A stretch of 64,000 nucleotides of DNA, taken from the NCBI RefSeq assembly GCF_001457035.1, contig NZ_KQ758618.1, positions 372,001-436,000 of the forward strand, in the 5' to 3' direction. Source of the stretch: Fictibacillus enclensis. GTDB lineage: Bacteria > Bacillota > Bacilli > Bacillales > Fictibacillaceae. Each line of letters starts with the position of its first letter. Position 1 is the first letter of the stretch. Under the pieces are notes generated by a model. The model was not told the origin of the DNA, did not search any database, and saw nothing but the letters and a program-made list of their open reading frames with translations. Made by a program: the position numbers and the translations under genes. This document shows, in pieces, positions 17,822 through 50,974 of the stretch.

Positions 17822-19003
17822 ATGCAAAAAGATGCTGTAATCGTAGCAGGAGCAAGAACGCCGATAGGCAAAGCAAAAAAAGGATCCTTCGCTCAAATGC
17901 GTTCGGATGAGCTGGCAGCAATAACTGTAAAAGAAACGCTGCGTCGCGCAGGCGGATATGATGGTCCAATTGATGATCTGATTATGGGCTGTGCCATACC
18001 GGAGGCCGAACAAGGAATGAATATGGCCCGGCTGATCGGTGCACGCGCAGGTCTTCCGGATACCGTTCCGGCAATCACGGTCAACCGGTTCTGTTCTTCA
18101 GGACTGCAAAGTATTGCCTATGGCGCAGAAAAAATCATGCTTGGTCATGCACAGGCTGTATTGGCCGGCGGAGCGGAATCCATGAGCCTTCTACCGATGG
18201 AAGGGCATGTGATCAAACCGAATCCGCAGCTCGTGGAAACCGTCCCGCAATATTACATGGGAATGGGATATACAGCAGAAGAAGTGGCCAACCGGTTTGG
18301 TGTGACGCGTGAAGATCAGGATGCGTTTGCGGTCAGGAGCCATCAAAACGCTGCGCGCGCCATCAAGGAAGGGAAATTTAAGGATGAAATCGTTCCGGTT
18401 ACCGTCACGAAACGATGGCTGGGTGAAGACAATAAACTAAAAGAAAAAGAATTTACGGTGGATACGGATGAGGGTGTTCGACCTGATACATCGTTGGAAG
18501 GACTTGCACGGCTGCGCCCGGCCTTTTCAGTACGAGGTTCGGTAACAGCAGGCAATGCATCTCAAACCAGTGACGGGGCGGCCACTGTACTTGTAATGGA
18601 CCGCGAGAAAGCAGAAGCAGAAGGGTTAACGCCGCTTCTTAAATTCAGAAGTTTTGCTGTGGCAGGCGTGCCACCGGAAATTATGGGAATCGGCCCTGTA
18701 GCTGCAGTCCCGAAAGCACTTAAACTTGCGGGCCTTGAGGTGGCTGATATCGGGTTGTTTGAATTGAATGAAGCATTCGCCTCCCAGGCGGTTCAAGTGA
18801 TACGGGAGCTTGGTCTTCCTGAAGACAGAGTCAATGTGAATGGAGGCGGAATCGCTCTCGGCCATCCGCTCGGGTGCTCCGGGGCCAAACTGACGCTTAC
18901 TCTTCTTCATGAGATGAAGAGAAGAGGAGAACAATTTGGAGTGGTAACCATGTGTATTGGCGGCGGAATGGGTGCTGCCGGCGTTTTTGAACTAGTGGAC
19001 TAA
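17822..19003 (+). CDS. fadA: Acetyl-CoA C-acyltransferase (3-ketoacyl-CoA thiolase)
   Basis: The 393-residue thiolase cleaves 3-ketoacyl-CoA with CoA to give acetyl-CoA and a shortened acyl-CoA. The acyl-accepting Cys is in NRFCSSGLQ (Cys 91), the catalytic His in [16 protein letters not shown] and the second Cys in [15 protein letters not shown] 17822 follows AAGGAGGGG. Gene order fadN-fadA-fadE is that of the B. subtilis operon, and only 21 bases separate it from fadE. Confidence 0.95.
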
Positions 19004-19024: not shown

Positions 19025-20809
19025 ATGTCTAACACAATGGAAAAAGTATTTAAAGGCGGAAGTTTTTTAGTGGAGGATATTCAGGCGGAGGATCTGTTTA
19101 CACCGGAAGATTTTTCAGAAGAACATTTAATGATTGCTAAAACAACGGAAGATTATGTGGTAAAAGAAGTGGTGCCGCAAATTGACAAAATTGAAAATCA
19201 TCAATTTGATATTTCAAGAAAACTGCTGACCAAAGCGGGAGAGCTCGGCCTGTTGGGTGCCGATGTTCCGGAAGCTTACGGCGGCCTTGAGCTCGACAAA
19301 ATTTCATCTTCACTGATTACGGAAAAGTTTGCCCGTGCCAGAGGCTTCTCCTTAAGTTATGGCGCACACGTAGGAATCGGTTCTCTTCCTATAGTACTGT
19401 TCGGAAATGAAGACCAGAAACAACGGTACCTTCCTGATCTGGCCACGGGAACCAGAATTGCCGCATATGCTCTGACAGAACCAGGATCAGGTTCGGATGC
19501 TTTGGGGGCGAAAACCACTGCAAGGTTGAATGAAGAGGGTACACACTATATCCTAAACGGTGAAAAACAATGGATTACCAACTCGGCATTTGCAGATGTA
19601 TTCATAGTATACGCGAAGATTGACGGCGAACAATTCTCTGCATTTATCGTGGAGCGGAACTTCCCTGGTGTTTCCACGGGTCCAGAAGAAAAGAAAATGG
19701 GAATTAAGGGCTCTTCAACAAGAACATTGATCCTGGAGGATGTTTCTGTGCCAAAAGAAAACCTGCTCGGCGAAGCGGGAAGAGGCCATGTGATTGCCTT
19801 CAACATATTAAATATTGGCCGTTATAAGCTTGCGGTAGGCTGCGTGGGCGGGTCAAAGCGCGGAATTGAGGTCTCAGCCAAATATGCCAATGAACGTTCC
19901 CAGTTCAAACGCAAAATCAGCTCATTCCCGCTCATTCAGGAGAAAATCGCTAACATGGCCGTAAAGACATATGCTTCCGAAAGCTCGGTTTACCGTACGG
20001 TCGGTCTTTTTGAAAAGCGGCTGGGCGGATTGGATGCTGAGGCGCAAAAAGATGGCAAAGAAGTGGCAAAAGCCATTGCTGAATACGCCATTGAGTGCTC
20101 CCTGAATAAGTTCTTTGCATCAGAAGTTCTTGATTACGTGGTGGATGAAGCAGTACAAATCCATGGGGGATATGGCTTCATGGCCGAATATGAAGTAGAG
20201 GGAGCGTACAGGGATTCCCGTATCAACCGAATCTTTGAAGGAACGAATGAAATCAACCGTTTGCTGGTTCCGGGGACTCTTGTCCGCAAAGCGATGAAAG
20301 GTGAATTGCCGCTGATTGAAAAGGCAACTGCCCTACAGAATGAATTAATGATGATGATGCCTCAGGAAGTGGGAACTGAACCGCTGGAACAGGAGAAGTA
20401 TCTCGTCAGCATGGGTAAGAAGATCATTTTAATGGTCGCAGGTCTTGCCGTGCAAAAGTTTGGTCAGAAGCTTGAAAATGAACAGGAGATCCTGGCAAAC
20501 CTTGCAGATCTGGTGAGCGAGGTATACGCGATGGAATCAACAGTATTGCGTACAGAAAAAGCCATAAACCGAACCGGCCTTGAGAAGAACACACAAAAGC
20601 TGTTAATGACCCAGGTGTTCTGTCAGGAAGCCTTCAACCGTATGGAAGCTCATGCCAAAGAATCGATTATCGGAGTAGAAGAAGGAGATACCCTTCGCAT
20701 GATGCTGTCTGCTCTGCGCAAGCTCACACGCCATACACCGACTAATGTCATCAAGAAAAAACGTGAAATAGCCGCTGTTGTATTGGAGGAAGAACGTTAC
20801 GTTATTTAA
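19025..20809 (+). CDS. fadE: Acyl-CoA dehydrogenase
   Basis: The 594-residue flavoprotein carries out the first step of beta-oxidation. Motifs include AYALTEPGSGSDA (FAD/substrate loop, about residues 140-152), QWITNSAFADVF, the QIHGGYGFMAEYEVE segment and RINRIFEGTNEINR. About 200 residues follow the catalytic domain, the long C-terminal extension typical of bacillar FadE (YusJ) and VLCAD-like enzymes. ATG 19025 follows CAGGAGGGG. A strong terminator after the stop ends the operon. Confidence 0.94.
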   Translation: MSNTMEKVFKGGSFLVEDIQAEDLFTPEDFSEEHLMIAKTTEDYVVKEVVPQIDKIENHQFDISRKLLTKAGELGLLGADVPEAYGGLELDKISSSLITEKFARARGFSLSYGAHVGIGSLPIVLFGNEDQKQRYLPDLATGTRIAAYALTEPGSGSDALGAKTTARLNEEGTHYILNGEKQWITNSAFADVFIVYAKIDGEQFSAFIVERNFPGVSTGPEEKKMGIKGSSTRTLILEDVSVPKENLLGEAGRGHVIAFNILNIGRYKLAVGCVGGSKRGIEVSAKYANERSQFKRKISSFPLIQEKIANMAVKTYASESSVYRTVGLFEKRLGGLDAEAQKDGKEVAKAIAEYAIECSLNKFFASEVLDYVVDEAVQIHGGYGFMAEYEVEGAYRDSRINRIFEGTNEINRLLVPGTLVRKAMKGELPLIEKATALQNELMMMMPQEVGTEPLEQEKYLVSMGKKIILMVAGLAVQKFGQKLENEQEILANLADLVSEVYAMESTVLRTEKAINRTGLEKNTQKLLMTQVFCQEAFNRMEAHAKESIIGVEEGDTLRMMLSALRKLTRHTPTNVIKKKREIAAVVLEEERYVI

Positions 20810-36886: not shown

Positions 36887-38284
36887 ATGGCTAAAAAAAT
36901 GCCTGAAATCGGCGAATACAAGTATGGTTTTCGCGATAAAGACGTTTCGATTTTCCGCTCAAAACGCGGATTGACAAAAGAAATAGTAGAAGAAATCTCC
37001 AAAATGAAAAACGAACCACAATGGATGCTCGATTTCCGTTTGAAATCATTAGAGCAATTTTATAAAATGCCTATGCCTCAATGGGGCGGAAACCTAAAAG
37101 ACTTAAACTTTGATGACATTACGTACTATGTAAAGCCGTCCGAGAAGTCTGAAAAGTCATGGGATGAAGTGCCGCCAGAAATTAAAGCGACATTCGACAA
37201 ACTTGGAATCCCTGAAGCTGAGCAAAAATACCTTGCTGGTGTTTCGGCACAGTATGAATCAGAGGTTGTATATCACAACATGAAAGAGGATCTTACTGAA
37301 CTGGGTATTCTGTTTACCGATACAGATACTGCGCTTCGTGAGCATGAAGAGATCTTCAAGCAGTATTTTGGTACTGTAATCCCTCCATCCGACAACAAGT
37401 TCGCAGCATTGAACTCAGCTGTTTGGTCCGGTGGATCCTTTATCTATGTGCCAAAAGGCGTGAAATGTGATACTCCGCTGCAAGCCTATTTCCGAATTAA
37501 CTCGGAAAACATGGGTCAATTCGAGCGTACATTGATCATTGCCGATGAGGACAGCTCTGTACATTACGTAGAAGGATGTACAGCACCGGTTTATTCAACC
37601 AATTCACTTCACAGTGCGGTTGTAGAAATCATTGTTAAGAAGAACGCCTATGCGCGTTACACAACGATTCAGAACTGGGCAAACAACATCTATAATCTTG
37701 TTACAAAGCGTGCGGTTGCCGAAGAAAATGCAACAATGGAATGGGTCGACGGAAACATTGGTTCACGTTTGACCATGAAATATCCTGCTGTTGTCATGAA
37801 AGGCCGCGGAGCAAAAGGCACTATCCTTTCCATCGCGATTGCCGGTAAAGGACAGCACCAGGATGCAGGGGCAAAAGTTCTTCACCTCGCACCTGACTGC
37901 TCATCCACCATTGTTTCGAAGTCCATTTCAAAACATGGCGGTAAAGTAACGTATCGCGGAATTTCACACTTTGGGCGCCGTTCTGAAGGATCCAAGTCCA
38001 ATATCAAGTGTGATACGCTGATTATGGATAACCAATCCACATCAGATACCATTCCGTACAACGAAATTTTAAACAACAACATCACGCTGGAGCACGAAGC
38101 TACCGTTTCTAAAGTTTCAGAAGATCAGTTGTTCTATCTCATGAGCCGCGGTATTTCTGAACAAGAAGCAACAGAAATGATCGTAATGGGCTTCATCGAG
38201 CCATTTACAAAAGAACTTCCAATGGAATATGCGGTTGAAATGAACCGTCTCATCAAGTTCGAGATGGAAGGTTCTATCGGATAA
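36887..38284 (+). CDS. sufB: Fe-S cluster assembly protein SufB
   Basis: The 465-residue scaffold subunit has the typical N-terminus [35 protein letters not shown] and the C-terminal [18 protein letters not shown] with [10 protein letters not shown] at the end. ATG 36887 follows AAGGAGGGA. A 121-base gap after sufU holds a weak hairpin. Its last 11 codons are repeated twice about 8 kb downstream, which suggests that the 3' end served as an integration site. Confidence 0.97.
38252..38284. other. Attachment-site-like core, copy A (sufB 3' end)
   Basis: The last ten codons and stop of sufB ([10 protein letters not shown]) recur at 46211-46243 and 46564-46596. Downstream of this copy, paired arm-like repeats TTGCCAACT (38347-38355) and GTGCCAACT (38358-38366) are spaced 11 bp. 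Confidence 0.7.
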
Positions 38285-38290
38285 ATAGCG

Positions 38291-38330
38291 AAAAGCCTTG
38301 GTATATAAGGAATATACCGAGGCTTTTTTA
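38291..38330 (+). terminator. Terminator of the suf operon
   Basis: A 16-bp stem (38291-38306 with 38312-38327; one G-U pair) around AAGGA and a T-run. A related hairpin follows copy C of the sufB end at about 46604-46640. Confidence 0.92.
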
Positions 38331-38338
38331 TGTATTTA

Positions 38339-38395
38339 TTAATGTCTTGCCAACTTTGTGCCAACTCGAAATTTTTTATTTGTTTTTTCAGCCAT
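38339..38395 (-). pseudogene. Integrase 3'-end remnant
   Basis: The minus-strand frame reads MAEKTNKKFRVGTKLARH then stop, like the extreme C-terminus (GTKLA) of tyrosine integrases that read toward their attachment site. Only about 18 codons remain and upstream sequence does not continue the family. The arm-like repeats lie inside this coding end. The assignment is by pattern memory. Confidence 0.45.
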
Positions 38396-38479
38396 TATGG
38401 TGCAAGTTTTCTTGCAGAAAGAGGGAAGTAAGTGGCTTGTGAATCGATTCCGACAAGTGAATGCTGAACCAATATAGTT

Positions 38480-38626
38480 GATTATTGCTGTTTGACTTTT
38501 AAATTTGTAGAAGTTATTAACCGCTTGGCACAAGCAGGTAAGACATTGGGTATTGAAGTTCTGGATCATTTAATTGTAAATGCTCAAGCAAATTATACAA
38601 GTCTTAAGGAAAAGGGCTATGTGTAA
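38480..38626 (+). pseudogene. RadC/JAB-domain protein, C-terminal fragment
   Basis: The open frame ends with VEVINRLAQAGKTLGIEVLD then HLIVNAQANYTSLKEKGYV and a stop, matching the C-terminus of RadC-type proteins common on mobile elements. The N-terminal two-thirds, including the JAMM metal motif, are absent, so it is a remnant. Confidence 0.8.
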
Positions 38627-38841
38627 AAACAGGAGGAAGGGATGAAAATCTCTTCCTTCTATTTTTTCAAAATGCTGTTTTTATTAACTTGCCATCCTCT
38701 GGAATCAACACATATTTGTCATCCCTCAAAAAAATAAGTTTAAACTAAAACTTAAAAGCTTTGTAACTAAAAGTTAATAATTGAACATTAGTCTTGATAT
38801 GTAACAGAATCTTCAATCGGTACGATATAAAGGAGACAGCT

Positions 38842-40353
38842 ATGAAAAAGTTATTCAGTGTAATGGGAATAGCCGCTTTATGCTCTACGATGGCATGTTC
38901 TACAACGCATGCAGGGAACAACACGCAAGTTAATCCAGACCTAGATACTAAAACACCGATTAAACACGTGGTTGTTTTATTTGGTGAAAATGTTTCATTT
39001 GACCACTATTTCGGCACGTATCCACATGCTAAAAATCCAGACGGTGAACCTAAATTTACTGCTAAGCCAAACACACCATCGGTGAATGGCTTGTCAAAAG
39101 AACTTCTTACCAATAACCCAAACCAATTTAATCCAAAGCGATTAAGCCGTGCACAAGCAGTAACAGATGATATGGACCATGAGTATACTGCTGAACAAAA
39201 AGCATTCAACGGTGGGAAAATGGACAAGTTTGTGGAGAATACATCAGGTGGAACCGATAAATCCCTCGTAATGGATTATTATGATGGCAATACAGTTACC
39301 GGCCTGTGGAATTACGCGCAAAACTACGCAATGAGCGATAATTCATTTAATACAACGTTTGGGCCTTCCACTCCAGGAGCACTTAACTTGATCTCTGGCC
39401 AAACCCACGGTGGAACAGGATTTGTAAATGGTGTGAAAGTAGGAGATATTGAAGAAAATATCGCAAATGGATCAGTGATTGGTGACCCGGACCCTCATTA
39501 TGACAATGCTTCTAATACAAAACGGGCACAAGCCGCTATGGATGGAAAAAATGTTGGGGATCTTTTGAACAAAAAATCCGTTACATGGGGCTGGTTTCAG
39601 GGAGGTTTCAGAGATACCACTGCTAAACACGCCAACATAGCGGGCCAATACAGTACAGATTACAATCCGCACCATGAGCCATTCCAATACTATAAATCAA
39701 CAGCCAATCCGGACCACTTGCCGCCAAGTTCTGTTGAAAAAATTGGGCATAACGATCAAGCGAACCATCAATATGATCTTGAAGACTTTTGGAAAGCAGC
39801 CGATAAAGGTAACATGCCAGCTGTAAGTTTCCTCAAAGCGGCCAACTATCAAGATGGCCATGCAGGTTATTCTGATCCGCTCGATGAACAGCATTTCATC
39901 GTTAATACCATTAACCATCTTCAAAAGCTGCCAGACTGGAAACAAACTGCCGTTGTATTAGCCTACGATGATTCAGATGGTTGGTATGATCACGTGATGC
40001 ATAACCCTCTGGTTAACGGTTCAGATGATCTGAAAACAGACGCACTTTATGGTCCTGGAGATGCTGGAAAGCCTCGATTGGGCTCCTATAAAGATCGAGC
40101 CGGATTTGGTCCTCGCTTGCCATTGCTTGTAATTTCGCCATATGCGAAGAAGAATTTTGTGGATCATTCATTAACGGATCAAACATCCATTCTTCGATTT
40201 ATTGAGGATAACTGGAGTCTTGGAAAAATAGGAGATTATTCGTTTGATTCGGTTGCAGGCAGCATGGAAAACATGTTTGACTTAAATCATGCCCCTTCGG
40301 ATAAAAAACTGTTCCTTGATCCAGAAACCGGACAGCCAATCAAGAAGAAGTAA
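38842..40353 (+). CDS. Secreted phosphoesterase (phospholipase C/acid phosphatase family)
   Basis: The product, about 503 residues, has an N-terminal export signal, MKKLFSVMGIAALCSTMACS, possibly a lipoprotein signal. The PF04185-like phosphoesterase domain shows HVVVLFGENVSFDHYFGTYP with the catalytic and metal residues, FGPSTPGALNLISGQTHG, PAVSFLKAA, AYDDSDGWYDHV and GPRLPLLVISPYAKKNFVDH. Such enzymes cleave phosphate esters or phospholipids outside the cell. ATG 38842 follows AAAGGAGA. It is the one clearly intact, full-length cargo gene in the decayed integration region. Confidence 0.9.
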   Translation: MKKLFSVMGIAALCSTMACSTTHAGNNTQVNPDLDTKTPIKHVVVLFGENVSFDHYFGTYPHAKNPDGEPKFTAKPNTPSVNGLSKELLTNNPNQFNPKRLSRAQAVTDDMDHEYTAEQKAFNGGKMDKFVENTSGGTDKSLVMDYYDGNTVTGLWNYAQNYAMSDNSFNTTFGPSTPGALNLISGQTHGGTGFVNGVKVGDIEENIANGSVIGDPDPHYDNASNTKRAQAAMDGKNVGDLLNKKSVTWGWFQGGFRDTTAKHANIAGQYSTDYNPHHEPFQYYKSTANPDHLPPSSVEKIGHNDQANHQYDLEDFWKAADKGNMPAVSFLKAANYQDGHAGYSDPLDEQHFIVNTINHLQKLPDWKQTAVVLAYDDSDGWYDHVMHNPLVNGSDDLKTDALYGPGDAGKPRLGSYKDRAGFGPRLPLLVISPYAKKNFVDHSLTDQTSILRFIEDNWSLGKIGDYSFDSVAGSMENMFDLNHAPSDKKLFLDPETGQPIKKK

Positions 40354-40370
40354 ATAAATGAAGGAAAGAT

Positions 40371-40396
40371 GAGTTGGCCTTTTGGCCAACTCTTTT
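40371..40396 (+). terminator. Terminator after the phosphoesterase gene
   Basis: GAGTTGGCC (40371-40379) and GGCCAACTC (40384-40392) around TTTT, then Ts. Confidence 0.9.
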
Positions 40397-40737
40397 AATT
40401 AAGAAAGTGTGGATAAAATATTGTGGAATCCTTATTCTTGTTAACTAAAGCGATTGTTTCCCCGCAGTTAATGAACGAGGCTACTTTTTGTCATATTCGT
40501 GCCTTTTCCATATTCACCGTACATTGTTTTTTAATGAATGTCGGTTCAACGTTCTTCTTCTGGATCTTAACCCCCATATAGACGTTGAAGCTAACGCCAA
40601 ATCAAGTAGAAATGTACTTAATAAACTCCATGTGCAATTTAGCGTTTAAAAAGTGTGCAATTTTTCTCTTAAAGTCACACCAGGTCTCTTTCTTGTATTT
40701 ATTTGTTCTCAAACTAATTTCAAAAACAAAATCCTAA
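40397..40737. other. Gene-free, A/T-rich stretch
   Basis: No supported reading frame, RNA or repeat was found apart from a short AACTAAAG string at about 40443. It looks like degraded DNA between two insertion fragments. Confidence 0.5.
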
Positions 40738-41483
40738 ATATGTACCTTTTTGACTGGATCTGGAGATATGGGGAGAGATGTAGTCGGCTATATAAAATAT
40801 ACACAAGATGAGAACGCTGAGTGGGATACAAGCATTACAATGGACCAATTACTCCTAAAACGGCATTGTTAAAAATAGGAAAAATGATTTATTACACATA
40901 TAAAAAGGAATTCTCTGTTCCTAAAAACTACTACTTTGTATCCCCAAAAGGTGCTGGGCCACAATTAAGTAAATTAATTGATAAACCTAACGATTTCAAA
41001 AAGAAGCTTTTAAAAGAATGGGATAAGACATGTAAGGATGACATTACTAAGAAGGAACAAGTGCTTTTAGAAGGTGATTTTAAGGATTATCTTGAGAGTT
41101 TCGATTTCTCGATTATTAAGGATATCGAACCCCAAGAACTTATTGTACAACACTCTGAAACAAGATATCACTTTTATAGATTTGGAGGAATAATTCCATC
41201 TAGACCTGAATCATTTTTACCACCTGACGATATAAATGAACACGAACAGATATATGTTGAGAAACTACTCGAAGCATATTCTGTTTATCACAAAAATTCA
41301 ATAAATACTACTTTAGAATTAAATCAATTTGATACTGAGTTAAATCACTTTATTAGACAAAAAAATGTTTTTTTGAAGCTGAAATCTTTGAAATTATTCG
41401 AGAGAGATATTTTACCTGATGGTATTAATGCGTTTGAGGAATTAAAAAATGATGTTTTTGAAGGCATAATTGATCACGCTTAA
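40738..41483 (+). pseudogene. PD-(D/E)xK-type nuclease-like defence protein, truncated and frameshifted
   Basis: A first frame gives TGSGDMGRDVVGYI, like the GxxGxD..GRD catalytic segment of a restriction-endonuclease-like fold, and runs to a stop at about 40872. A second frame, open from 40821, continues with YKHYNGPITPKTALLKIGK (where intact relatives have a Q-x-K/CKHY motif), YYTYKKEFSVPKNYYFVSPK and a C-terminal KLFERDILPDGINAFEEL. The two halves join near 40815-40825, so one indel has broken the gene, and the N-terminus is missing. The architecture recalls the nuclease component of ABC-3C-type or related conflict systems. Confidence 0.6.
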
Positions 41484-41600
41484 AAAAGTAAAAGAAGTAA
41501 GCAAGATTGCGAGAAATTTATCAATTAGAACTTACCCCCTAGAATCAAAGGTTAAGGGGAATGATGTAACGCCGGTACAACGATGTGGGATGGAGGATCA
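41464..41600 (+). pseudogene. Possible partner-gene fragment of the defence system
   Basis: Directly after the nuclease frame, another frame reads KVKEVSKIARNLSIRTYPLE then SKVKGNDVTPVQRCGM before running into unrelated sequence. It resembles the start of a small middle component seen next to such nucleases. Short and truncated; the assignment is tentative. Confidence 0.35.
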
Positions 41601-41639
41601 TGGTCATCAACCTGGATTTTTTAAACTAGACAAACAAAA

Positions 41640-41666
41640 AAAGGAGTGCATCTATAGCACTCCTTT
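41640..41666 (-). terminator. Terminator of the nucleotidase remnant
   Basis: AAAGGAGTGC and GCACTCCTTT pair around seven bases; the T-run lies on the minus strand (A-run at 41634-41642 on plus). Confidence 0.82.
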
Positions 41667-41681
41667 CGCCATACTTATTAC

Positions 41682-41945
41682 TTATTTATTTAACTTTGTA
41701 ATTCGGCCGTCGATCGAAGGATTTACTTCGCCTTTTGACTTGATATATTTTACTAATGCATCGATATCAACGATATCAACGACTTTGTTTTGGCCATCTT
41801 ATAATGTGGTATAACCATCTCCACCGCTTGCCATGAAGCTGTTCACTGTTGCAGTATAGGTTTTAGACGGGTCGAGCGGTGTACCATCTGGCAGTGTGAT
41901 TTCTACAACCTTTTCTCCTGCAGGTTTAGAATCGTCATACTTTAC
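41682..41945 (-). pseudogene. 5'-nucleotidase/nucleotide phosphoesterase C-terminal remnant
   Basis: The minus strand encodes KYDDSKPAGEKVVEITLPDG, then PLDPSKTYTATVNSFMASGG and VDIDALVKYIKSKGEV, ending SIDGRITKLNK. This is the C-terminal domain of UshA/YfkN-type secreted nucleotidases. An in-frame TAA after GYTTL and the loss of everything upstream of 41945 make it a dead fragment. Confidence 0.85.
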
Positions 41946-41974
41946 TTAACTGGGATGGCTGCGGTGATCCCGTT

Positions 41975-41998
41975 TTTTTTATTGTGCTAACGGGCAGG
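41975..41998. repeat. Dispersed GGGCAGG motif, copy 1
   Basis: TGCTAACGGGCAGGTTAGTT has CTAA/TTAG arms. Related strings are at about 43070-43090 (AACTAAAGGGTGCGTTAGTT), 43133-43147 and 44574-44592, all within the decayed region. Confidence 0.4.
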
Positions 41999-42116
41999 TT
42001 AGTTCAACAAGGTTCGGCAAAAAAGAATAATGGTTTAAGCGCATATATAAATAGGGTAGTAACAATAAATAAGTAATTGACCACTTAACATAGAGCATCT
42101 ATGGGGAGGTAGAACT

Positions 42117-42200
42117 ATGGCTTACTTGTTGGGAAATCTAAAAGCATCTTTAGAGCAAACCCTAGGAACTTTTAAATCTTCTCAACGAACGTGGTGTTGA
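42117..42200 (+). CDS. 27-residue peptide frame with strong SD
   Basis: ATG 42117 follows GGGGAGGT (42103-42110) and encodes MAYLLGNLKASLEQTLGTFK plus seven residues ending WC. It could be a small peptide gene or a broken front end of a longer gene. I do not recognise it, and coding status is uncertain. Confidence 0.3.
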   Translation: MAYLLGNLKASLEQTLGTFKSSQRTWC

Positions 42201-42443
42201 AACATTAAACATTCTTTATCCAGGACTAAATTATGGTGGAATGCTTTATTATCAGCTTTTAGAATCTTTTCACAGCCGAATCCTTGAATTTTGGAAATAT
42301 ATCCTGAAAAGTATGAAAATTTCAGATAAGTGCTGTTATTTAGGTAAATGACTGATTGTGAAAATATATTTTTTATTCCGATATTCACTTGTCTTGATGT
42401 ATGTTTTGTAGTGTTACAATACAGTTAAAAAGGAGACCATACG

Positions 42444-42989
42444 TTGAAATTATCCAATGGAGAACATATATTTTATCACTTTGAACAAATTGACTATTAT
42501 ATAGAGAATGCTGTCTCTTTTATAGTCTCCGGTATTAAACAAGGAGACCATATAATATTAATCGAAAATGAAAGCATTTCTGTAAGGATATTTAATAAAG
42601 TTAGATTAGTGCTTACCGCTGAAGAATTGTCTAACGTACACTATACAGACAACTTTGCTTTCTACTGTAAACACGGGGATTTTCATACGCCAACGATTGT
42701 AGCGGATTTTGGCGAAATTTTAAAACCGTTCCTTGATGAAAATTTAACGATTCGAACATGGGCTCATGTAGAGTGGGGGCATCAGCTAGAAATAGAACAA
42801 AAATTAAATCAATTTGAAGAAGTAGCAAATAAAAGCGTAAATGAAATGGGGTTAGTATCAGTTTGCGCATATGATACAGCAACAATAACTGAATCTATAA
42901 TGCAAAATTTAATGAAAAGCCATGAATTCCTCATGACAGACATTGAACTTCGTCCTTCCGCTTATTACATCAGAACAATTATAGAATAG
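42444..42989 (+). CDS. MEDS-domain protein
   Basis: The 181-residue protein matches the MEDS (DcmR-type sensory) domain: GEHIFYHFEQIDYYIENAVS at the front with IVSGIKQGDHIILIEN, and VCAYDTATITESIMQNLMKSH near the end. MEDS domains bind small ligands and are normally fused to or partnered with regulators; here the domain stands alone. TTG 42444 is nine bases after AAAGGAGA. It is A/T-rich like its surroundings and is one of few intact genes in the accessory region. Confidence 0.72.
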   Translation: MKLSNGEHIFYHFEQIDYYIENAVSFIVSGIKQGDHIILIENESISVRIFNKVRLVLTAEELSNVHYTDNFAFYCKHGDFHTPTIVADFGEILKPFLDENLTIRTWAHVEWGHQLEIEQKLNQFEEVANKSVNEMGLVSVCAYDTATITESIMQNLMKSHEFLMTDIELRPSAYYIRTIIE

Positions 42990-43606
42990 TTGCTATGTTT
43001 AGTTTTGTTCTCACCTAATTCATTTTGATATTCAAAACTGACTGCATGAACGGCGGCTTTTTTCTTGTTGAACTAAAGGGTGCGTTAGTTGAGGAAGGAA
43101 TGACTGCTTTGGCAGCCGGTTTTTTTGTTTCAGTATAGGGCAGGTTACGTTTAATTAAAATATATTGAATAAATGATTAAATATATAACTTACCTAATCA
43201 AGGAATTTACAACTACTTGCACGATAAGGCATAAAATTAAAGAGACTAAAATATGCAAGTTTTTATGCACTACTTGCGTATTTTGGCTCTTTTTACATTC
43301 ATAAAAGATACTGCCATTTATAGCATTTTTTAATTGCCAAATAAGCTAACTGATTTGCTCTAAAGCGAATCAGTTTTTTTTTAATTGACTTTATGTAAAC
43401 TAGACCACATCTACGCCCACTATTGAATATTAATATTCAAAAGTATTGCTTCGGGCTCCATTATTAAATACATGTTTATAGTTATGTTTATTAATTAGAA
43501 AAGAAACAAGGTAACGACTCCGTGTTTGTCCCTGTCTCTTCGGCGTCGAACCGCATTTAATAAGTATATAACGATTAAATTCAGTATAAGGGAGGTAAGT
43601 AAAGAA
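42990..43606. other. Gene-free stretch with repeats and a palindrome
   Basis: No supported gene. It holds the AACTAAAGGGTGCGTTAGTT motif (about 43071-43090), a second GGGCAGG string at 43138 and a perfect 18-bp palindrome at 43423-43440. Confidence 0.5.
43423..43440. repeat. Perfect 18-bp palindrome
   Basis: TTGAATATTAATATTCAA is its own reverse complement. It could be an operator for the gene starting at 43607 or a chance A/T palindrome. Confidence 0.45.
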
Positions 43607-43828
43607 ATGGCACCCCGACCGAAGGATATTGTGGTTATTGTGTTTGAAAGTATTCCCAGATCGAGACGTTTTCGTATTGCTGATTTTTCTATCATTGGCA
43701 GTGCAGGCCCGTGTAGAGAATTTCTAAGAAAAGGGGAAGATATAGTGCATGTGGAAAGTTGCCTTTTAAGAAATGGCTTTCGTGTTGTATTTGAAAGCTC
43801 GAATGTATTGTTGTTCGTTCGTAGGTAA
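43607..43828 (+). CDS. Hypothetical protein, 73 residues
   Basis: From ATG 43607 behind GGGAGG (43590-43595) the frame encodes MAPRPKDIVVIVFESIPRSR and a basic, beta-rich body ending VVFESSNVLLFVRR. No family is recognised. A longer frame from 43526 has no SD. It is isolated between A/T-rich non-coding DNA and an IS remnant, so it may itself be a fragment. Confidence 0.45.
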   Translation: MAPRPKDIVVIVFESIPRSRRFRIADFSIIGSAGPCREFLRKGEDIVHVESCLLRNGFRVVFESSNVLLFVRR

Positions 43829-43989
43829 ACTGCTCCATGTAGTCTTTTTTTAATCTGAAACCAAAAGTAAAAGGGATTCGTAAATATCCGTACTAATGAA
43901 AGTAGGTAAATCGAATCCTTCTTTTAATATATCAGTTTTCAGGCGGGGGTTCTCTATGTTTAAACCCGAACATTAAACCGAATTTTTCC

Positions 43990-44420
43990 TTTTATTCCTG
44001 CACCAGCCAAAACTCGTCATAAACTTGCTGACCAATAAAACAAAACAAATTGGTTCTCGGTCGCCATCTGTACGTTGTAGCCTGGTTTCAACTGGCCGTT
44101 CTTCATGTGGTCTTCTTTCATGCGCATAAACGTGGCCCGGTGTCCGTTTTGGAGTAACTTTTCCGATTTCCGAATTAATTCGTTCTGTTCCTTATATTTC
44201 GCTAAACGAGGCAAGAAATCTTTGCGAATGAGCTTAAGTGGCTTCTTAAACCTACTGCGTACTTGTCGCATCTCTTTGCGTTTTTCAGTATCCTTTTCAT
44301 TCTCTATACCGTTGGTAATGGGTCGAGACTTTTTCTTCAAGTCCCTGTGCGACTCCCTCTAATTCATCAAATAGTCCGTCAGGATCTTCTTCACCAAGTT
44401 CCACAGCTTCCACGCTTAAA
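43990..44420 (-). pseudogene. IS1182-family transposase remnant
   Basis: On the minus strand a frame from 44340 reads [20 protein letters not shown] and then [30 protein letters not shown], the conserved block of IS1182-type DDE transposases, before degenerating. Another frame just upstream ([20 protein letters not shown]) is a shifted earlier part. Both ends and the rest of the catalytic domain are lost. Confidence 0.8.
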
Positions 44421-44426
44421 GTAGGT

Positions 44427-44594
44427 ATTCGGGGTAAGAATAACTGGGAGCGAAACCAGCGGGATTATATTATTGGTTCCATTACGACTCCGAAGAAAAT
44501 CAATAAAGAGATTTTGAAAGTGATACAAGCAAATGGATGCCAGCAGCTGATCAGAAGCTCCTTTTCTTATGCAACTATAGGGCAGGATTGTTGA
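44427..44594 (+). pseudogene. Unrecognised protein C-terminal fragment
   Basis: An open frame joined to the IS remnant reads RGKNNWERNQRDYIIGSITT then PKKINKEILKVIQANGCQQL and ends at a stop at 44592. It looks coding but lacks a start and I do not recognise it. Confidence 0.35.
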
Positions 44595-44667
44595 AGAAAG
44601 AAAATACTAAATAAAAGTTGAAAAGTTGAAAATCCTCTTAAAACTAATATGGCAGGTGCTTATTAAA

Positions 44668-45106
44668 ATGAAAGATGTAAGAGATTTAATTCATACAGGG
44701 AAAATAGGGGTAGATGAGTCGGATATCAAAGCAACAGAAGATAAGTTAGGTGCAGTTTTTCCAGAGCAATATAAAGCACTTTTTAAATTAGTTAATAATG
44801 CAGAAATAGGTGAATGGATTCTTTATCCTATCAAAGACCATAGAAAATTCTAAAAAGACCTGGGATGATATTGTTAGACAAAACACTGAGTTTAGAGAAG
44901 AAGAACGTATGTCGAAAGACCTCATTACTATCGGTGATGATGGTACGGGAGATAAATTATGTCTTAAAGTAAATGACGGAATAATGGGGAATGAAATTTA
45001 TATTTGGAATCACGAAGATGGAGTGCTTGAAGAGTATACCCCTAATTTGAAAGAATTTAAAATCTCAATATCAAAAGAGAACGAGGTAGATTTTGAGGAC
45101 GAATAA
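44668..45106 (+). pseudogene. SUKH (SMI1/KNR4) family protein, frameshifted
   Basis: ATG 44668 opens a frame with DESDIKATEDKLGAVFPEQY KALFKLVNNAEIG, the SUKH signature start, which stops at 44851. The neighbouring frame continues with KKTWDDIVRQNTEF, LITIGDDGTGDKLCLKVNDG and EIYIWNHEDG, the rest of the domain. One indel near 44845-44858 splits the gene. SUKH proteins often act as immunity proteins against contact-dependent toxins; no toxin gene is adjacent. Confidence 0.78.
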
Positions 45107-45428
45107 ATATTTCTTCAACAATCGGGTGCGTTTATGAAAGATCCACAAATTAAAATTCGAAGGTTTTGGTTTCCTATTCTTCTATATTAGACGATTCAGA
45201 CGTCGTTTTTGGTCGCAATTCTTCATATGAAAAACATAGTTGTTCTTTTGCTGGGCTTTTTCAGTTCGATACCGATTTTTTTTATAAAAAATATGTAGAA
45301 TAGTAGCTGTTAAAATCGAATATGTTATTTTGAGAAAGGATCTATGTTAAAATCAATACATAAAATCTATTTACTTTGGGATTTTTGACTTTTCTTAGTC
45401 ACCCCCTTTGTAAGGAAGGGAGTAAGAA
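45107..45428. other. Gene-free stretch
   Basis: No supported reading frame or structure. The SD AGGGAG of the next gene lies at the right end. Confidence 0.45.
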
Positions 45429-45800
45429 ATGAATAAAATCAGTGTTTTCTTAGATGACTATAGGATAGAACCTGAAGGTTATGTTTTAGCGGAGACGATC
45501 GACGAGTGTTTAGAGTTGCTGCGAAATTTTAACATCGAACATCTTTCTTTGGATCACGATTTATTAAATAAAAACAGGAATGGTCTAATGCTAGTTCAAA
45601 TGATGGTGGATGAAAAACTATTTGCTAATCGCATAACCATTCATTCAGCAAATTCGGTTGGGGGCAAAGCGATGTTCAGATGTCTAAAACAGGCACAAAC
45701 GGATTCAATTCTTTCCCATTCTACCATTATATCTTTAAGACCACTGCCCCTGCATTTTTACCCGCCAGGGGTTCTGCAACATTATATAGACGTAATGTAA
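45429..45800 (+). CDS. Cyclic-phosphate-processing receiver-like protein
   Basis: The 123-residue protein starts MNKISVFLDDYRIEPEGYVL and continues with LSLDHDLL, RITIHSANSVGGKAM and ISLRPLPLHFYPP. The DDxR, DHD and HSAN motifs match the stand-alone receiver-like domain proposed to process cyclic phosphates (cREC). ATG 45429 is preceded by GGAAGGGAG. It appears intact. A role with RNA repair or nucleotide signalling is inference from the family description. Confidence 0.7.
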   Translation: MNKISVFLDDYRIEPEGYVLAETIDECLELLRNFNIEHLSLDHDLLNKNRNGLMLVQMMVDEKLFANRITIHSANSVGGKAMFRCLKQAQTDSILSHSTIISLRPLPLHFYPPGVLQHYIDVM

Positions 45801-45961
45801 GTTAATACATTTTTTTAAAAAATATAGGGTCAGGATAAAAGAACACTTAAATTACGAATAAAAGAGATAAAAGCCCAGGACTTTGAATCTGAGCTGCCCT
45901 TATGATATGAGTGTGGAGATAAGGGTAAATTAAGTCTATCCGATCTTCAATTTTTATAAAC

Positions 45962-45990
45962 AAAAGACTCGCCAATAACGAGTCTTTTTT
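45962..45990 (+). terminator. Terminator-like hairpin
   Basis: AAAAGACTC (45962-45970) and GAGTCTTTT (45980-45988) around nine bases plus a T-run. No gene ends close by, so the gene it served may be gone. Confidence 0.75.
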
Positions 45991-46090
45991 ATATTTAAGC
46001 TGAAAAAAAGTGTCATATCCCTTATTTATGAAAATGCACCTCAAAACTGAACTTATTGTTGGAGCTGATCGCCAAGGGACCATCAACGAC

Positions 46091-46243
46091 GTGCCGATTC
46101 AGTCCCGATTGAGTTTGAAAAATCCTAAAAAGCTTTGATAAGGTAATACTAGAAACCTTGATATTTCAACGTTTTTGCAAGTCTATGACACACTATGAAA
46201 ACTTCAATTAATCAAGTTCGAGATGGAGGGTGCAATCGGTTAA
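46091..46243. other. Attachment-site-like copy B with arm
   Basis: GTGCCGATT (46091-46099) and a degenerate second unit CCCGATT precede, by about 120 bases, a sufB-end copy at 46211-46243 encoding IKFEMEGAIG and stop. The 120-base interval resembles the one before copy C. Confidence 0.65.
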
Positions 46244-46443
46244 TATTAAGAAACCCTTGGTATTTAAAAAGATATGAAATATTTTAAAAACAAAAAAATT
46301 ATAAAGGCTGATTTACAGCAATTTGAGCATAATTTAAAAAGAAAAAAATTGGTGAGATAAGTTCCGTACACAAGTTCCTCTTTGGGACCCTATCTGTAGA
46401 ATATATAAAAATTTTGACAACAAAGAAACAGGGTTATATCAAC

Positions 46444-46640
46444 GTGCCGATTTTGTGCCGATTGAGTTTGAAAAACCTTAATTAGCTTTGAAAAGGAAAT
46501 TCTAAAAACGTTGATTCATCAACGTTCTTAGAAACATATGATACACTATGAAAAACTCAATTAATAAAGTTCGAGATGGAAGGTTCAATCGGCTAAAGTC
46601 CAAAAGATCTTGGTATATAACGAATATACCAAGGTCTTTT
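46444..46640. other. Attachment-site-like copy C with arms and hairpin
   Basis: Paired GTGCCGATT units at 46444-46452 and 46455-46463 (11-bp spacing) lie 120 bases before a sufB-end copy at 46564-46596 encoding [10 protein letters not shown] and stop. A suf-like terminator hairpin follows, then AGAGTCGTGCCAACTC at 46653-46668, like the arm next to copy A. Confidence 0.68.
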
Positions 46641-47061
46641 TATGTGAAAATTAGAGTCGTGCCAACTCAAAATCTTTTGTTCAGTACACGCAAGATAATT
46701 AAATAATTGTCGCTTCCGAAAGAGGTATTGAATCAGAAAACACAATCAATAGATAAATTTAAAAACCCTTGTCATAATAAGGAATTATGGTAATAGTTAT
46801 TATTATGATTTTGGTTCTTTTCGATTTTGTGAGGATTCAGAATTATTCTTGACAAGAACACGTTTTTGGTGTTCGTAGGAGGGATTGAAACGACCTCGAG
46901 GATATGGTTCATGTAGCTGGACGTTAGCATTAGTGAAAGTTTGAATAAAGTTATCTAGTTTTTGAGGGAATATACCTCAAAAACAAAAGGTTTGTCAGCG
47001 ACAAGAGATTCGAGGAGTGAAGCTGACGAAGAAAATCGCCGTTGATCACAAACCGATAGAT
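46641..47061. other. Gene-free stretch before the 5S rRNA
   Basis: A minus-strand integrase-tail-like trace (about 46655-46680) follows copy C. A hairpin TTTTTGAGG..CCTCAAAAA lies at about 46960-46983. No other gene is seen. Confidence 0.45.
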
Positions 47062-47178
47062 GTCTGGTGGCTATAGCGAAGAGGTCACACCCGTTCCCAT
47101 ACCGAACAGGGAAGTTAAGCTCTTCAGCGCCGATGGTAGTTGGGGGTTTACCCCTGTATGAGTAGGACGTTGCCAGGC
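47062..47178 (+). rRNA. rrf: 5S ribosomal RNA, isolated copy
   Basis: The sequence carries the conserved 5S blocks GCGAAGAGGTCACACCCGTT, GGAAGTTAAGCTCTTCAGCG, CCGATGGTAGTTGGGG and GAGTAGGACGTTGCCAGGC. The ends GTCTGG and CCAGGC pair to form helix I. No 16S or 23S sequence is present on either side, so it stands outside a ribosomal operon. A terminator follows. Confidence 0.92.
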
Positions 47179-47186
47179 ACGATTGA

Positions 47187-47221
47187 AGCACTGTTGGATT
47201 TTCCAGCGGTGCTTTTTTTTT
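47187..47221 (+). terminator. Terminator after the 5S rRNA
   Basis: An 11-bp stem (47187-47197 with 47203-47213; two G-U pairs) followed by nine Ts. Confidence 0.88.
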
Positions 47222-47421
47222 GTGAGATCGACAAAGTTCGATAAGACATATTACAATATTCACAAAATTATTTATATTGGAGGTTGTCCAAGAAAAATGT
47301 AGAAATAATTTTAGATGCGATTTTTACTTTCTCATTGAAGGTTCAAAAGAGAAAGAAATAATCTAAGAAATAATATAAAATGGGACGATGCTATTAATTT
47401 TTCGTTCAGGGAGGACAGCCT

Positions 47422-50120: not shown

Positions 50121-50171
50121 AAACTTTCGGTTGAATTATCTAATACGATAAACACTGAAGGAGTGAAAAAA

Positions 50172-50636
50172 ATGATTATGTCAAAGAAGGACTATTTTGA
50201 AATGATGGAAGGCAACAGAAGATTGACTCTAAGAGCTATTGAGGCGTTTCCGGAAGACAAATTTTTTGTGTATACACCCGATGAAAAGCTTCGCCCCTTT
50301 TCCGAAATGATAAAAGAGATTGTGAATATCGAAAGCGGTTATATGCACGGTGTGGCATTGGATAAGTGGGAGTACAAGGATGTATTTGAAGGGGCAAATA
50401 AAAAGGAAGAATTTCTTCAAATCAGCCAGGAAGTTCGTGATCAAACGAGAAAGCTGTTTGAGGAAATGAATGAGGAAAGATTGAATGTGGTGATGCAAGA
50501 TCCCTTCTTTGGACCGGAAATGAGCCATTTTGCACGCCTTCAATATGCATTGGAAAATGAAATTCATCATCGTGGACAGGGCTTTACATACCTTCGTCTG
50601 CTCGGAATTGAGCCTCCAGAGTTTTATGTGCGATAA
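50172..50636 (+). CDS. DinB family protein
   Basis: The 154-residue four-helix protein shows DinB features: FSEMIKEIVNIESGYMHGVA with the first metal His and ENEIHHRGQGFTYLRLLGI with the C-terminal His pair. Family members are metal-binding, some act as thiol transferases with bacillithiol. ATG 50172 lies eight bases after AAGGAG; the GTG 50163 overlaps the SD. A terminator follows. Confidence 0.87.
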   Translation: MIMSKKDYFEMMEGNRRLTLRAIEAFPEDKFFVYTPDEKLRPFSEMIKEIVNIESGYMHGVALDKWEYKDVFEGANKKEEFLQISQEVRDQTRKLFEEMNEERLNVVMQDPFFGPEMSHFARLQYALENEIHHRGQGFTYLRLLGIEPPEFYVR

Positions 50637-50678: not shown

Positions 50679-50974
50679 GTTTGAATAGATGAACGGTCAA
50701 AAGGCCGGCAACAACATGGAAAGAACGGCAAGAAACATCGTGGCATCCATGAGTATTACAGGCTCCTCCTTGCTTCGCAGACGGGAAGCAAATACTTGAT
50801 ATCGATTTCAAATTTTGAGATAATTATTGAAGAAGCGGGTACGTTTTGTTCCCTCTTTTTCTTTTTAAATGAGAAGATATGAATACAAGCGGACGCCAAA
50901 GGGGGTTCGCTTTTTTACATAATGAAATTTTGGGGAATAGAAAAGTAAACTTATGGCCAAAGAGGAGAATCCCA

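Follow-up and report, generated by a model that had tools for sequence, protein, structure and literature searches.

According to the available text of two reports (PMC7563491, PMC5704250), integrative and conjugative elements (ICEs) and integrative and mobilizable elements (IMEs) of streptococci show accretion of cis-mobilizable elements (CIMEs) and microCIMEs at the 3′ ends of the genes rpmG, rpsI, fda and rplL; the cargo-bearing CIMEs described there measure 1.2-13 kb and the microCIMEs, which carry no genes, 130-220 bp. Prophages are present at or near another gene, sufB, for example in staphylococci and in Latilactobacillus sakei, as stated in the accessible parts of several papers (PMC9641780, PMC11769447, PMC11919988, PMC5320670, PMC8297860). 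Here we analyze the 3′ end of sufB in Fictibacillus enclensis, within a stretch of 64,000 nucleotides of contig NZ_KQ758618.1 (positions 372,001 to 436,000; hereafter the window, whose own coordinates are used throughout). In our judgement, this locus is very probably a tandem accretion of decayed ICEs, made up of an 8-kb cargo CIME, a 353-bp microCIME and an eroded third unit. The case is carried by the repeated attachment cores and the positions of the arm repeats around them, by insertion-free sites and a near-complete element with its integrase in relatives, by colinear relics of conjugation genes, and by a recent transfer of cargo.

As in the streptococcal CIMEs, so far as the text available on them goes, integration and transfer genes have been lost, attachment sites appear to have been kept, and the units are stacked at the 3′ end of a single gene; the sizes found here, 8.0 kb and 353 bp, compare with the streptococcal ranges given above. 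Unlike those CIMEs as described in the same portions of the sources, the units of the window have sufB as their target and a host of the Fictibacillus family, no intact ICE is part of their own stack, and cores also occur off target. Genome scars of this kind are known already, but the site is new, and a nearly complete relative is available for comparison. A search of the open literature, made mostly at the level of listings, found no report of an ICE at sufB. The attachment cores of the L. sakei prophages, as printed in a table of the partly available source, match, by our reading, the terminal codons of sufB in reverse complement, the part of the gene that is involved here as well; the elements at sufB in L. 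sakei and Staphylococcus are, in the text at hand, phages, whereas the module seen here is conjugative.

The sufB gene (36890..38284, forward strand) ends in a 30-nt core starting at 38255 (copy A), which recurs in the same orientation at 46214 (copy B) and 46567 (copy C). Taken as the last ten codons and stop of sufB, copy A spans 38252-38284 and would be the left attachment site, copy B lies at 46211..46243, and copy C, an attP-like junction with arms on both sides, at 46564..46596. Three sufB 3′ ends at these places had been announced in the original prediction, made from the sequence of the window, and they are there; no such core occurred in 100 shuffled sequences (expected 0.00, with up to 3 mismatches tolerated), and the exact core pattern is absent from the rest of the window's own genome (G000), all 4.5 Mb of which was scanned. 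Alignment of the copies, which had been proposed as a check, gave a common stretch of 179 nt for B and C (79% identity), mostly upstream of the core and ending 24 nt past it, and one of 104 nt for A and C (80% identity), running downstream from the core start. Because B and C share sequence mostly upstream of the core and A and C downstream of it, A looks like a left end, B like a right end and C like both, as in a junction of two elements. Ordinary recombination could also have duplicated the sufB 3′ end in tandem, with no mobile element involved, which would agree with the copies being direct repeats in one orientation; this is nevertheless hardly credible, as B and C have before them no sufB sequence but some 120 nt of different DNA, which they share and which contains arms, and comparable right ends recur in further species and loci.

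The arm repeats, all on the forward strand, lie at fixed distances from the cores, as predicted (offsets are counted from the core start). Core A is followed by the pair TTGCCAACT/GTGCCAACT with a spacing of 11 nt (38347..38366; +92/+103). Core B, at the right end of unit A-B, is preceded by GTGCCGATT (46091..46099; -123), and core C stands between a pair of GTGCCGATT, again spaced by 11 nt (46444..46463; -123/-112), and GTGCCAACT (46659..46667; +92). The number of arm words in the window is by itself not unusual (11 against 6.28 expected, with 11 or more in 7 of 100 shuffles). Their positions were surveyed with a somewhat broader motif, [GT]TGCC[AG][AG][CT]T, around 51 distinct exact cores with 300-nt flanks from the collected loci of the family. 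Within 250 nt of these cores all 48 occurrences of the motif were on the forward strand and none on the reverse, the main offsets being +92, +103, -124 and -113. An upstream arm (-124, -113 or -112) was present at 10 of the 20 cores that lack sufB coding sequence directly before them and at none of the 31 that have it; many of those 20 are inner or right-hand cores of sufB stacks, the window's B and C among them.

Relatives of F. enclensis provide the sites without insertion that the original prediction had suggested looking for. In G025, from another genus of the family, only 87 bp separate sufB from a conserved downstream gene of 280 aa, which we take to be yunF-like. In a second genus, six genomes (G011, G012, G015, G017, G019 and G022) have about 1.9 kb of native genes there, in the order sufB, terminator, a presumably ModA-like gene, a presumably nitroreductase-like gene and the yunF-like gene, while the same distance in the window is about 12.7 kb. 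It ranges from 87 to 31,458 bp in the 31 of 33 genomes measured, the values for G000 and G005 being possibly off by a few nt; in G016 and G029 the yunF-like gene is beyond the stretch examined, and in a 34th genome, G007, sufB was not matched at E 1e-100. Two or more cores, with up to 4 substitutions allowed, lie between sufB and the yunF-like gene in 9 of the 33. G005, the closest relative by sufB, is without the 38.3-50.16 kb stretch at this place. G001 differs from G005 by one extra unit of 386 bp right after sufB, which has a degenerate core boundary and contains an integrase tail; both genomes continue after that point with a similar terminator and a DinB gene. Among the relatives compared, genomes with additional cores also have additional DNA, and what lies between the copies of the window is missing at this place; neither copies without an insertion nor a shared ancestral chromosome between them was seen.

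A near-complete element, which the prediction had likewise proposed to seek, is located at the same sufB site in Fictibacillus nanhaiensis KCTC 13712 (G016), from the same taxonomic family as the window. Directly after sufB this genome encodes an intact tyrosine integrase of 399 aa with Phage_integrase (PF00589) and Phage_int_SAM_3 (PF14659) domains, on the opposite strand and directed towards sufB; its frame runs from 1,347 to 151 nt after the sufB stop, and the arms lie outside it. The C-terminus is NKFSVYTKRNKTTQKRNDPFST, not the GTKLA tail that had been expected. Early genes of the element encode an M78 (ImmA-like) protein, a helix-turn-helix protein and an IstB/DnaA-like ATPase. Its conjugation genes encode a TraG/TraD-type coupling protein, TcpC, TcpE, a TcpF-related VirB4 ATPase and TrbL/VirB6, and a lysozyme/M23 protein, a RadC protein and a protein with a phage-replisome-organiser N-terminal domain are also present. 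Scanning genome contigs with the G016 integrase returned two loci, that of G016 itself and one in F. aquaticus (G007), where a 7.3-kb contig carries the left half of a similar element with an integrase 89-90% identical. Integrase tails on the opposite strand remain after the sufB stop in G001 (28-139 nt), G030 (72-595 nt) and G032 (78-336 nt). With ICEs of the ICEBs1/Tn916 type the G016 element shares the integrase, the ImmA-like and helix-turn-helix regulators, the coupling protein, TcpC, TcpE, VirB4, TrbL and the lysozyme/M23 protein. It differs from them in using sufB and not a tRNA gene, which is the attachment site of ICEBs1, in having no identified relaxase and a seemingly large cargo (as judged by eye), and in having its ends on separate contigs. 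We read it as an ICE at sufB, subject to the split contigs and to the relaxase, which was not identified. Beyond the conjugation module (loci L089 and L090), inspection by eye pointed to a large cargo with copper-resistance-like, Feo-like and cytochrome-oxidase-like genes.

The G016 gene content also bears on the possibility that the elements are prophages or phage satellites, as at sufB in Staphylococcus and Latilactobacillus. Prophages at or next to this gene are on record in the portions available of four papers (PMC9641780, PMC11769447, PMC5320670, PMC8297860), and the phage-replisome-organiser domain would suit such an origin. The near-complete relative nevertheless carries a conjugation module, no phage structural family was found in Pfam among the 10 window and 14 G016 proteins searched, the relics in the units are of CwlT, VirB4, RadC and the gene after CwlT, and a scan of viral contigs with the arm-pair pattern plus flank gave no match, all of which makes a phage origin very improbable. 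The predicted stack of decayed tyrosine-recombinase elements stands, in view of the sites without insertion and of the G016 element, with the change that the elements would be conjugative, of the ICE type.

Unit A-B, the presumed 8.0-kb cargo CIME, preserves traces of such an element. Window positions 38290-38391 are 90% identical over 102 nt to the left end of the G016 element, after which the window matches element positions 18422-18497 and then 20225-20373, in the same order. These two segments hold the last codons of the gene following the CwlT-like gene and of RadC, respectively, and the relics in the window, both on the forward strand, are the 3′ end of that 188-aa ICE gene (38388..38474; residues 160-188, 65.5% amino acid identity, E 1.8e-7) and the 3′ end of the ICE RadC gene (38507..38617; residues 109-145, 75.7%, E 1.3e-12). 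A fuller copy of A-B is found in G003 (C1:580.6-584.7 kb), away from sufB, where the CwlT-like gene is represented by its C-terminal part, the gene after it is mostly present and RadC is matched over its full length. Relative to this copy, there is a junction in the window near 38387, and about 1.05 kb has been deleted near 38521. Because unit A-B aligns colinearly with both the G016 element and the fuller G003 copy, it is, as judged from these alignments, a deleted version of a G016-like ICE, colinear with it apart from large deletions, and the descent from an ICE by deletion is borne out. The DNA flanking the deletion at about 38521 is 98.5% (134 nt) and 99.0% (1,953 nt) identical between the window and G003:C1, while the sufB regions of the two are 87% identical; on this difference, the cargo DNA is evidently the subject of a recent move, exchanged after the window species and G003 had parted. 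Of the ICE genes, the unit yielded 3′-end scraps of only these two and is without functional integrase or transfer genes; it has cores and arms at both ends, the arm classes differing. Weak tblastn matches of the window insert to ImmA, DnaC, ConB, p143 and CwlT (E 0.003-0.7) were taken as chance, and CwlT matches of 33-38% at loci L074, L090, L092, L109 and L120 were attributed to ordinary M23 peptidases and are not counted among the relics.

Cargo follows in unit A-B. The genes identified there, on the forward strand and with Pfam assignments, include a phosphoesterase family protein (PF04185; 38842..40353), whose DNA is 99% identical in G003:C1, a CTD6 domain protein of ABC-three-component systems (PF20282; 40821..41483), a MEDS domain protein (PF14417; 42444..42989), an SMI1/KNR4-type (SUKH) fragment (44626..44853) with a further frame at 44810-45106, and a cREC receiver domain protein (PF20274; 45429..45800). 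Between 41970 and 43147 there are three diverged copies of a repeat of about 32 nt, ending in GGGCAGGTTA or GGGTGCGTTA and 69-75% identical to the reference.

The cargo invites another explanation, in which the units are cassettes that were never autonomous and owed their movement to a resident ICE, whose integrase acted in trans, in the manner of an integron-like or satellite-like array. It would fit the finding that 29 of the 33 genomes, the window and the empty sites included, have no integrase match within 1.5 kb of sufB at E 0.01 (within 0.9 kb only in G029), the long open cargo frames in units of at least G003, G008, G018 and G024, and the presence of the same cargo at sufB in the window and away from it in G003, at 98-99% identity. 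Several units nevertheless contain conjugation or integrase relics, which in the window are in ICE order and so argue for deletion from ICEs, and the only unit compared with a fuller copy differs from it by deletion; we regard the cassette explanation as quite unlikely. Further relics of this kind are of CwlT in G003 and G004 (71-76% over about 40 aa), of VirB4 in G008 (94% over 52 nt) and of RadC in G024 and G030. No dedicated recombinase was identified for the arrays, the sole candidate tested being a XerC-like protein of 280 aa. It was rejected as the engine, since among the loci searched (the window, L018-L026, L059-L078, L089-L096 and L109-L120) it lies beside two G003 arrays only. A short XerC-like recombinase (83% identity over residues 20-280) is encoded at L018:854-1696 and L020:3340-4137, upstream of two G003 core arrays that are not at sufB.

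Under the reading as decayed ICEs, a tyrosine integrase would recombine the core of about 30 bp, that is, the last sufB codons, with the copy on the element, and the incoming element would supply its own last sufB codons and terminator, so that sufB stays whole. Once deletions had removed the genes for the integrase and for conjugation, the cargo flanked by attL and attR would remain as a CIME. Since every right end restores a sufB 3′ end, a later element could land there, so that units stack. The recombination itself and the order of landings are what we infer, as is whether any unit could still be excised or mobilised.

Several observations weigh against this reading. The arms of the window fall into two classes, CAACT after cores A and C and CGATT before cores B and C, and the G016 element has CAACT arms at both ends; since the classes differ in the window but not in G016, unit A-B may join the ends of two elements. 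With the intact G016 integrase as query, no integrase scrap was detected in the window insert at E 1, and the integrase-tail-like frames that had been proposed to flank A and C find no support there. Beside sufB an integrase is present in only 4 of the 33 genomes, intact in one and as a relic in three. The G016 element has its ends on separate contigs, the left one on C21; at C12:3822 a core with an upstream arm pair is followed by the native terminator and the ModA-like and nitroreductase-like genes. No relaxase was identified among the G016 frames searched, where a weak MobC-like replication-relaxation match stayed below the cut-off. Cores also occur hundreds of kb from sufB in G003 (C6:741200 and C6:744395), G006 and G024, and G003 (C1), G029 and G030 have cores on other contigs; these may have been relocated by rearrangement or may result from integration at secondary sites. 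For the third unit, finally, no right-end core could be detected in the window: local alignment against 200 shuffles per sequence gave a best score of 21, reached by 25 of the 200. The same search found the degenerate core of G001 (score 47, null maximum 31) and a marginal one in G006 (26, reached by 1 of 200); none was found further on in G001 (22, reached by 18 of 200), in G002 (16, 148 of 200) or in G005 (17, 124 of 200).

After core A lies a sufB-type terminator (38295..38329), read from the sequence, inside the stretch shared at 90% identity with the G016 element's left end; a second one, likewise read from the sequence, follows core C (46606..46641) and is included in the A/C repeat comparison. 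A suf-type terminator after C had been predicted; it is present there and likewise after A, and in both places it is, by these comparisons, element-borne. The native sufB terminator in the window's genus, GCGAACGCC..GGTTCGC, is unlike the one after A and C. In the window the native terminator, separated from sufB, still stands before the yunF-like gene (50889..50916; all three are on the forward strand), and in G003 and G004 it follows directly after the rightmost core. The native sufB terminator of the second genus, CCTTGGTG..CACCAAGG, resembles the element-borne one. A different sequence follows sufB at loci L024, L025, L026 and L120.

Unit B-C (46244..46563, forward strand) is microCIME-like, measuring 353 bp from core to core and having no listed frame of 50 aa or more inside. 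Unit C begins with core, terminator and arm, followed by cargo: a sodium:dicarboxylate symporter (PF00375; 47422..48675, forward strand; 98.7% identical DNA in G003:C6) and a thioesterase (PF03061; 49168..49680, reverse strand; 95% identical DNA at G003:C6:761559), both assigned by Pfam. Its left end (91%) and the symporter (98.7%) also occur in G003 at C6:1348.1-1343.9 kb, not at sufB. At that locus (L158; G003:C6:1348081, reverse) a truncated core adjoins the left end and symporter of window unit C, and the gene about 75 nt before this core is presumably LD-carboxypeptidase-like. A 5S rRNA gene (47063..47178, forward strand) lies inside unit C, and the sequences around it also match other 5S sites in the family; it belongs to an apparent piece of an rRNA operon end at 46847-47240, which was not found in the otherwise 98.7% identical G003 copy. 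Further right, a gene for a DinB family protein (50163..50636, forward strand; Pfam and genome comparison) and the DNA beyond it form an older layer in common with G001 and G005. The inserted region reaches about 50.88 kb, so that the end of the element stack originally placed at 46680 has to be moved.

In G003 a dienelactone hydrolase gene (L020:5631-6230) ends in a sufB tail, whereas the dienelactone hydrolases of five other genomes stop after ...LDFLE, ...LDFLA or ...LEFLA; G016 and G020 have an apparent degenerate core and terminator after the stop of this gene. Near the G024 core about 506 kb from sufB (L093:8059-12943), two genes are 83-87% identical to sufB flank genes of G014, one of which we take to be iron-alcohol-dehydrogenase-like. 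An operon there, presumably germination-like, resembles by eye one in the sufB stack of G018. A broader and doubtful proposal is that, in this family, a portable cassette boundary is formed by the sufB 3′ end: cargo units with core and arms would cross species and settle at sufB and elsewhere, perhaps adding a sufB tail and terminator to other genes, such as the G003 dienelactone hydrolase, and would be served in trans by occasional sufB-specific ICEs.

Read as an accretion of decayed ICEs, the locus and its relatives offer a base-resolved series of one ICE hotspot, from insertion-free sites through a near-complete element, partial decay, cargo CIME and microCIME to an eroded scar. Our findings point to sufB as an ICE site, and they show that where sufB tails recur with this terminator in these genomes, they are carried by elements.

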